From Candidatus Bathyarchaeota archaeon (GTDB lineage: Archaea; Thermoproteota; Bathyarchaeia; Bathyarchaeales; Bathycorpusculaceae), in contig JAGTRA010000045.1 of assembly GCA_018396935.1 (NCBI GenBank), forward strand, positions 1-7,860: DNA of 7,860 nt, read 5' to 3'. A model generated the notes under the pieces. The model was not told the origin of the DNA and did not search any database. It worked only from the letters and a program-made list of their open reading frames with translations. The translations under genes were made by a program, and so were the position numbers. This document shows, piece by piece, positions 571-1,714 of the stretch. Within the stretch, counting starts at the first letter, position 1. The number at the start of each line of letters is the position of its first letter.

Positions 571-1092
571 TTAAAACCTATCATAATGAATCATGCTCTC
601 CAAGGGTCTCCTTCCAACGTATCTTGGTTTTTCAGCTGGGTAGCCGACTGGTATAATTGCTACTGGTCTAATGCCAAAGGGTATCCCGAGAATCCTTTTA
701 ACTTCATCCTCTCGAAATGCGCCAACCCAACATGTGCCAAGCCCCATGGAGTAGGCGGCTAAGTGAATATTTTGTATTGCTGCAGCTGTATCCTGGATGC
801 AATAGAGGGTTCTACCCCTAACGCCATAACCTTGAGCTGAGCGATTTTCGTCAGCACATACTACAATGACGACAGGGGCTTCCTCAATGAAGAATTGCCC
901 AAGAGCTGCCTCCGCTAGCGCATGCTTAATCTCTGGATCCCTTACAATAATGAATTCCCATGGTTGTATGTTGCCTGCTGAAGGAGCCCATCGTGCAGCC
1001 TCAATCAACTGTTTAACGACATCATCCGGTATATTGATGTCTCTAAAAGCCCTTATACTCCTCCTCCCCTTAATTGCCTCAAAAACATCCAT
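571..1092 (-). CDS. Nitroreductase-family FMN oxidoreductase
   Basis: A 173-residue protein of the nitroreductase superfamily: homodimeric FMN enzymes that pass electrons from NAD(P)H to nitro compounds, quinones, flavins or other acceptors. Visible family features are the N-terminal FMN-phosphate motif RRSIRAF (residues 10-16), SAGNIQPWEF (38-47), DTAAAIQNI (101-109), GLGTCWVGAF (117-126) and PVAIIPVGYP near 143-152. Length is normal for the short, single-domain type. An upstream in-frame ATG at 1122 and another at 1098 would add residues, but ATG 1092 is preferred because family N-termini start with MDVFEAI-like sequence and GGGGTGAT at 1104-1097 is a Shine-Dalgarno match with 4-base spacing to it. 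The gene is separated from the downstream ligase by 55 bases holding a separate promoter, so co-transcription is not required. The physiological substrate cannot be told; roles in cofactor or flavin metabolism are also possible. Confidence 0.92.
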   Translation of the reverse strand: MDVFEAIKGRRSIRAFRDINIPDDVVKQLIEAARWAPSAGNIQPWEFIIVRDPEIKHALAEAALGQFFIEEAPVVIVVCADENRSAQGYGVRGRTLYCIQDTAAAIQNIHLAAYSMGLGTCWVGAFREDEVKRILGIPFGIRPVAIIPVGYPAEKPRYVGRRPLESMIHYDRF

Positions 1093-1096
1093 TAAC

Positions 1097-1104
1097 ATCA
1101 CCCC
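1097..1104 (-). promoter_or_regulatory. Ribosome binding site deciding the nitroreductase start
   Basis: GGGGTGAT on the minus strand matches the archaeal anti-Shine-Dalgarno complement (GGAGGTGATC) at seven of eight positions. It lies 4 bases before ATG 1092 but abuts or overlaps the ATG at 1098, and it lies inside the coding sequence if ATG 1122 is used. It therefore favours 1092. Confidence 0.65.
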
Positions 1105-1170
1105 GGTAATCATAGGATACATTCAACTGATAAAATTTCGCTTAAAAACTCAGGTGCTTTCACGGAATGG

Positions 1171-1178
1171 CTTAAATC
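1171..1178 (+). promoter_or_regulatory. Possible TATA box for the C/D box RNA
   Basis: CTTAAATC is an A/T-rich box resembling archaeal TATA elements. It is centred about 25 bases before 1200, where the proposed guide RNA would begin. The match is weak by itself and gains support only from its position. Confidence 0.35.
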
Positions 1179-1198
1179 AACGTTTTACAAGTTTATTC

Positions 1199-1270
1199 TT
1201 TTGGATGATGAGTCAGGGAGTCAATAGAGCTTAAGCTATGATATGACTCTCGACGGGCGGACTGACAAAA
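1199..1270 (+). ncRNA. Candidate C/D box guide sRNA for 2'-O-methylation of 16S rRNA C1402
   Basis: Box C is ATGATGA at 1205-1211, a perfect RUGAUGA, and box D is CTGA at 1262-1265. Flanking TTTTG (1199-1203) can pair with CAAAA (1266-1270) as a terminal stem. The bases before box D, GACGGGCGG at 1252-1260, are exactly complementary to CCGCCCGUC, 16S rRNA positions 1399-1407 (E. coli numbering), one of the most conserved rRNA stretches. By the box D plus five rule, the fifth base upstream of box D (G1257) pairs with C1402, a nucleotide known to be 2'-O-methylated in bacteria (RsmI) and, from memory, in eukaryotes under snoRNA guidance. The base next to box D (A1261) does not pair, as is usual. 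Internal boxes are degenerate: ATGACTC at 1243-1249 could be C', leaving a canonical 12-base guide spacer, or ATGATAT at 1238-1244; no clear D' or second guide target is seen. Such RNAs act with L7Ae, Nop5 and fibrillarin. Transcription is inferred. Confidence 0.75.
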
Positions 1271-1394: not shown

Positions 1395-1427
1395 CCAAGC
1401 GTAGGCTGGCATGATCAAAGCGGTTGA

Positions 1428-1435
1428 GAGGTGAT
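1428..1435 (+). promoter_or_regulatory. Ribosome binding site deciding the eL22-like start
   Basis: GAGGTGAT is an exact match to the archaeal Shine-Dalgarno core. It ends 6 bases before ATG 1442. It directly abuts ATG 1436 and lies within the frame if TTG 1424 is used, so 1442 is the favoured start. Confidence 0.75.
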
Positions 1436-1441
1436 ATGGAA

Positions 1442-1714
1442 ATGATTAAGGTTGATCTTTCTGATCTTAAAGTTGAGGGTAAAGAAGTCGTTGATGAGCT
1501 ATTAGAATTTATAAAAGCGAGGTTAGGCGTTAATCCAGAGGTTTCATCTGATACTATGAAGCTGGAAGGAGAAAAATGCACTAAGGAATATATGCGAGTT
1601 CTATTGAGGAAATTTCTTCATAAAAATGGGTTAAAGCCGTACTATCGGGTCATAAGCGGAGGAGATGACGTATTAATAATTAAGGAGCGGAAAATCCCAA
1701 AGCAAAGTGAGTAA
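1442..1714 (+). CDS. eL22 (L22e)-like ribosomal protein
   Basis: A 90-residue lysine-rich protein. It resembles ribosomal protein eL22, a large-subunit protein best known from eukaryotes. The N-terminal part (IKVDLSDLKVEGKEVVDELLEF at residues 2-23, then IKARLGVN) follows the eukaryotic pattern of a VDLS-like strand, an acidic turn and a helix FEEFLxERIKVN. The stretch from residue 47 (TKEYMRVLLRKFLHKNGLKP, then YYRV) aligns without gaps to the eukaryotic [20 protein letters not shown] followed by WLRVV. It is somewhat shorter than the eukaryotic protein, lacking the basic N-terminal tail and acidic C-terminal tail. The start is set by a strong ribosome binding site. The gene has its own TATA-like promoter and 55 bases separate it from the next gene, so it appears monocistronic or loosely linked. 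The comparison is to remembered sequences; a related nucleic-acid-binding protein with the same fold is the main alternative. Confidence 0.72.
   Translation: MIKVDLSDLKVEGKEVVDELLEFIKARLGVNPEVSSDTMKLEGEKCTKEYMRVLLRKFLHKNGLKPYYRVISGGDDVLIIKERKIPKQSE

Follow-up and report, generated by a model that had tools for sequence, protein, structure and literature searches.

A candidate box C/D sRNA family of Bathyarchaeia predicted to guide 2'-O-methylation of 16S rRNA at C1402

Introduction

An intergenic stretch at positions 1199-1270 of contig JAGTRA010000045.1, from the Candidatus Bathyarchaeota assembly GCA_018396935.1, raises the question of whether it encodes a box C/D sRNA and, if so, which ribosomal nucleotide that RNA would address. 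The window analyzed here is the whole 7,860-nucleotide stretch of DNA in which the element lies. A first-pass annotation, made from the letters alone, had proposed a C/D sRNA aimed at the decoding-site nucleotide C1402 of 16S rRNA, probably with a single guide. This nucleotide is ribose-methylated by proteins in bacteria and through C/D snoRNAs in eukaryotes, and the modification is also found in Pyrococcus. The comparative sequence evidence presented below supports the proposal, and we place at roughly 85% the probability that 1199-1270 encodes a member of a C/D sRNA family shared by many Bathyarchaeia and predicted to direct 2'-O-methylation of 16S C1402. Positions in helix 44 (h44) of 16S rRNA and helix 69 (H69) of 23S rRNA follow the E. 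coli numbering.

Layout of the element and its surroundings

The element is flanked by genes for a nitroreductase (571-1122, minus strand) and an eL22-like protein (1424-1714, plus strand). It carries the terminal stem, the box C (RUGAUGA) and the box D (CUGA) of an archaeal box C/D sRNA, all of which are kept in relatives (Table 1). Every letter of box C, box D and the TTTTG/CAAAA stem proposed in the first-pass annotation was verified, and the kink-turn fits follow the base-pair rules of kink-turns. ARAGORN found no tRNA in the window, and an Rfam search of the window returned no family above threshold, with sub-threshold matches only. When the element stretch was searched alone, eight of ten weak Rfam matches were to C/D snoRNA families, one on the opposite strand, and archaeal sR33, sR2 and sR23 were among the best sub-threshold matches. 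The folding energy of the window is ordinary (z -1.0), which counts against our interpretation; upon folding four relatives we observed a z below -2 in one of the four, and the energies do not single out the internal helix described below.

Table 1. Predicted features of the element and its upstream region, in window coordinates
Feature	Position	Strand	Remarks
BRE/TATA-like promoter element, predicted	1163-1175	+	CTTAA at 1171-1175
5' arm of terminal stem, TTTTG	1199-1203	+	would pair with 1266-1270; letters checked
Box C, ATGATGA	1205-1211	+	would form kink-turn with box D; bulge 1204-1206
Internal helix, 5' strand, GGGAGTCA	1216-1223	+	occupies the would-be D' guide
Box D', TAGA	1225-1228	+	K-loop pattern present in 94/97 distinct copies
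K-loop	1229-1236	+	GC/GC stem, TTAA loop
Box C', ATGATA	1238-1243	+	C'/D' kink-turn fit by sequence
Internal helix, 3' strand, TGACTCTC	1244-1251	+	would pair with 1216-1223
D guide, CGACGGGCGG	1251-1260	+	complementary to 16S C1399-G1408; G1257 is D+5, opposite C1402
Box D, CTGA	1262-1265	+	CTGA in 95/97 distinct copies, most of them collected with a CTGA-demanding pattern
3' arm of terminal stem, CAAAA	1266-1270	+	would pair with the TTTTG arm

To the 5' side of the element, alignment on box C of the 66 copies having 62 upstream bases revealed 53 occurrences of CTTA(A/T) starting 30-34 nt upstream of box C, accompanied by an A-rich block. This arrangement suggests that transcription would start near the terminal stem. 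Genes for both fibrillarin and Nop5 are present in the same genome: the Nop5 gene (contig C107, 5864-6541) is adjoined by a fibrillarin piece (C107, 6642-7076), and a second fibrillarin piece lies at the start of contig C32. The protein enzyme RsmI scored above the cut-off in none of 30 genomes, and weak sub-cut-off matches were observed in three of the 30, the genome of the window among them.

The downstream neighbor, a short protein, resembles eL22, a ribosomal protein of eukaryotes. The eL22-like protein scores 24.3 bits against Pfam PF01776 in the window (cut-off 23.6), five of its homologues score 21.1 to 37.6 bits, and its best PDB match is an eL22 chain (E 0.0006). Homologues are present at 41 of the 94 loci fetched around the sRNA.

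The D guide and its predicted 16S target

The first-pass annotation had matched nine bases, GACGGGCGG at 1252-1260, exactly to 16S 1399-1407. The match is indeed exact, but it is one base longer: the sequence in relatives' 16S is CCGCCCGUCG(C/U)UCC, to which C1251 pairs as well, giving 10 of 10 paired positions between 1251-1260 and C1399-G1408. In the window, GACGGGCGG exactly fills the interval from the internal helix to A1261, the A that precedes box D. When bases are numbered from box D in the upstream direction, A1261 takes position 1 and G1257 position 5, so that the proposed register holds and D+5 lies opposite C1402 in the 16S of relatives. The draft genome that contains the window (1.08 Mb, 74.8% complete) yielded no 16S, so we infer the target of the window's own RNA from relatives. 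Matches to 16S came from 17 of 34 relatives, and the 15 segment-holding loci all read CACACCGCCCGUCG(C/U)UCC; with 21 SSU loci fetched, the agreement between guide and target that the first-pass annotation had anticipated was thus found at 15 of 15 relatives' loci holding the segment, the genome's own 16S being the part that was not found.

Across the 97 distinct copies, 72 pair with 16S over exactly nine positions, and guide position 2 is A in 91, mismatching C1399. The D+5 position is G in 95 of 97, a count that leans upward since most copies were collected with guide-containing patterns. In the two remaining copies, L220 and L226 (genomes G398 and G048), the base at D+5 that faces C1402 is A, and the 16S of G048 is normal despite this substitution, which speaks against our interpretation. 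L220 also has CTAA for box D, and both copies look as if they are decaying. We considered whether the spacer of the D guide (ACTC) prolongs the match to 16S and ruled this out, as G(C/U)UCC follows GUC in 16S. For the D' segment, complements of 7 to 9 letters were looked for in the 16S sense strand, and none was found there.

Distribution among relatives

A DNA search with a 171-base query (1150-1320) showed that 28 of 59 relatives carry the element (29 of 60 genomes counting its own), with matches starting at window positions 1173-1202 and stopping at 1266-1278. All 20 loci fetched through this search carry the guide and the boxes. A covariance model built from 49 copies and run with stricter filters, the approach by which the first-pass annotation had proposed to look for boxes and guide in relatives, recovered the element in 102 of 256 genomes of the class, and among class genomes at least 90% complete it matched 65 of 120. 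Given that the model was silent in 154 of the 256 class genomes and, under laxer filters, matched none of 27 chosen no-hit genomes in a run that held no positive control, the family is either widespread yet patchy or diverging past the reach of the model. At the level of the phylum, the pattern TGATGA..GACGGGCGNNCTGA is present in 31 of 398 genomes and its mirror (reversed) pattern in 0 of 398; together with the DNA search, this bears out the earlier judgment that a chance origin is unlikely.

A pattern scan of named genomes returned 75 stretches, 58 of which carry the family signature. The titles of these 58 name Bathyarchaeota or Bathycorpusculum in 56 cases, 'uncultured archaeon' in one and 'Nitrososphaerota archaeon' in one. 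We omitted the other 17 (L022, L028, L031, L032, L035, L038, L040, L044, L050, L056, L057, L060, L067, L071, L076, L080 and L088), which are without the GGA/GAA start and K-loop of the family; most are bacterial and probably chance matches. Copies were excised with patterns that require G(A/G)ATGATGA together with the greater part of the guide, and because these collecting patterns contain them, the conservation counts for box C and guide letters lean upward. Ten copies that fail the patterns were added by hand to the set used for helix covariation. The alignment and counts exclude L131, L132, L158-L160 and one match in G373, which carry the D guide but lie outside the aligned family.

Judged by eye, other archaea have short C/D-like RNAs in which the same GACGGGCG guide before box D is combined with other second segments, as in L040 (Methanomassiliicoccales), L159 and L160. 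In addition, one bathyarchaeal chromosome (CP070730.1) carries two copies of the element, L068 and L083, with differing sequences.

The probable internal helix and the C'/D' module

One strand of the likely internal helix coincides with what would be a second guide, the other with the 5' portion of the D-guide spacer, and in the window the two can form eight pairs, one of them G-U. Of the two regions expected to be free guides, the second covaries with the spacer of the first and also matches 23S H69. At least five helix pairs are available in 83 of 97 distinct copies and fewer than five in 14. To compare true with exchanged partners we took the 32 of 97 copies that have no GACTC in the 3' strand, merged those sharing a 3' strand into 22 representatives, and observed a pairing score of 10.7 for own partners and 7.8 (sd 0.6) for swapped partners, with 0 of 5000 swaps reaching 10.7 under a control that leaves shared ancestry in. 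Retaining the GACTC copies (37 representatives) likewise gave 0 of 5000. The compensatory strand pairs include GAGTCA/TGACTC, GAGCTA/TAGCTC, GAGCC/GGCTC, GAGAGA/TCTCTC and GGGCG/CGCCC, several of these types coming from one genus. An earlier swap test, restricted to 59 copies, had displayed no difference (5.86 own versus 5.78 swapped pairs) because most of those copies read GAGTC/GACTC; covariation appeared with divergent copies. These findings suggest that the internal helix is likely kept through compensatory changes and likely replaces the usual second guide.

The internal boxes had been described as degenerate, and although D' does vary among copies (TAGA in 29, CAGA in 25, CTGA in 14, ATGA in 12, and others), this description is incomplete. 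The C'/D' module consists of NNGA, a short stem of the GC/GC type and then, past a spacer of one base, RUGA; the corresponding pattern, NNGA-G(C/T)...(G/A)C-N-RTGA, is found in 94 of 97 copies and fits, by sequence, a kink-turn at the end of the helix.

In the arrangement that we favor, the terminal kink-turn of an assembled RNP would be built from boxes C and D, and the D guide would direct fibrillarin to 2'-O-methylate the decoding-site C1402, with GACGGGCGG pairing to C1399-C1407 and C1251 to G1408 in a manner that would set C1402 at D+5. Within the same RNP, the segment following box C (1216-1223) would pair with 1244-1251 and hold the C'/D' kink-turn at the helix end, and this segment could touch 23S H69 as well. 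We regard the element as real and its predicted target as right, and we consider it likely that it acts as a single guide. Archaeal C/D RNPs reportedly depend on a symmetrical architecture with two domains (PMC6770171); a rigid helix inside the RNA might upset such symmetry, which counts against our interpretation.

Alternative explanations

The complementarity of the second segment to H69 raises the possibility of an ordinary dual guide, in which D would address 16S C1402 and D' (AGGGAGTCA) would address H69 with D'+5 on C1920, such that one RNA would mark both faces of intersubunit bridge B2a. This bridge is the h44-H69 contact, and C1920 is a TlyA site in bacteria. In relatives, GAGAGTCA is exactly complementary to H69 UGACUCUC (E. 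coli 1917-1924), a sequence that H69 displays in 16 of 16 genomes read; L161 (G429), which reads UGACCCUC and whose 23S is ~75% identical to a bathyarchaeal 23S around H69, was left out of this count and may be a foreign contig. Pairing with H69 extends over nine positions of the window (A1215-A1223, one G-U) and over at least seven positions in 72 of 97 copies when G-U and any register are allowed, D'+5 falls on C1920 in the window and in 33 of 59 copies, and the A preceding GAG is conserved though unpaired in most internal helices. However, the D' register drifts among the 59 copies (U1921 in 13, C1922 in 6, others in 7), and a shuffled spacer finds 8 matching bases somewhere in 16S and 23S 19% of the time. 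Furthermore, six copies of one genus (L136, L139, L144, L216, L228 and L229) retain just 5-6 H69 pairs while the helix is kept by compensatory change, and in G367, which carries L139, H69 still reads UGACUCUC. Because these six copies lose most of the H69 match but keep the helix, and because the register drifts, we rank the helix above an H69 guide and regard the dual guide as rather unlikely. It is improbable, in our estimation, that the D guide methylates C1402 in h44 while the D' segment recognizes H69 near C1920 and the helix, with the H69 target repeated in its 3' strand, serves as a decoy that has to be displaced by 23S; were such a decoy to exist, the two methylations would be coupled to subunit maturation. 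The h44-H69 contact itself is described in the text of Dennis et al. (PMC4644070). Separately, we noted intron-like insertions directly after UGACUCUC in the 23S of L123, L124 and L166 (G026, G007 and G259); they lie around helices 69 and 71 and border the possible D' target.

A genuine C/D RNA could also be mainly structural or regulatory, as an h44 folding chaperone or an L7Ae-binding RNA, with C1402 methylation secondary or lost. L220 and L226 would fit such a role, as they are mismatched at D+5 but otherwise retain the guide, and passages of Dennis et al. (PMC4644070) put forward the idea that some archaeal sRNAs act as chaperones; the ability of D+5 to pair in 95 of 97 copies and the presence of Cm at the equivalent nucleotide in P. 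abyssi argue against it, and we hold it to be very improbable. As for boxes that came together by chance between two genes and serve no function, this reading would accommodate the sub-threshold Rfam matches and the ordinary folding energy, but it is contradicted by conservation centered on the element over many genera, seen in both the DNA search and the covariance model, by the compensatory changes, and by the upstream motif at a near-fixed distance, leaving its likelihood close to nil.

Discussion

The first-pass annotation implied that an archaeal guide for C1402 would be new, which was an overstatement. In the passages that treat this site, sR12 of Pyrococcus and Sulfolobus is already predicted to guide C1402, and the equivalent nucleotide of the P. 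abyssi 30S is modeled as Cm1376, so that both the target and the kind of RNA were known. For eukaryotes, such passages give Cm1639 (yeast) and Cm1703 (human) as the equivalents. Besides PMC4644070 and PMC6770171, the sources drawn upon are PMC7994747, PMC3511168, PMC7005279 and PMC11542601. Among the matches listed from the open-licence literature, we found no bathyarchaeal C/D sRNA family and no such internal helix; a guide family spread among Bathyarchaeia would extend the RNA-guided solution for C1402 to a lineage for which no described C/D sRNA was found. The covarying helix would additionally allow one to ask, in a natural system, whether a single guide plus a C'/D' module carried on a helix is enough for an archaeal C/D RNP to function, an outcome that would be unexpected if a symmetrical RNP is required.

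One of the closest counterparts by description is sR12, likewise an archaeal box C/D sRNA with C1402 as its predicted target; it is described from crenarchaea and euryarchaea, and the section describing it makes no mention of Bathyarchaeia. SNORD43 (U43), snR70 and AtU43, which according to the passages concerned guide 18S Cm1703, Cm1639 and Cm1645, have their target nucleotide in common with the window element but are eukaryotic snoRNAs with no significant sequence match to it: Rfam snoU43 aligns at GGGCGGACUGA in the same register with 13.7 bits, the cut-off being 45, and Rfam SNORD43 scores 11.6 bits on the opposite strand. Bacterial RsmI and RsmH (m4Cm1402) act on the identical nucleotide but are protein enzymes. 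The archaeal dual-guide sRNAs of Dennis et al. 2015 (PMC4644070) resemble the window element in boxes, size and box-D-plus-five geometry as set out in the text of that study, where the helix 44 predictions concern the counterparts of E. coli A1408 and G1494 and '1402' is absent from the main text. The 489 sRNAs of that study are described as having two guide regions each, whereas in the window element the second segment can pair with the spacer of the first in a covarying helix.
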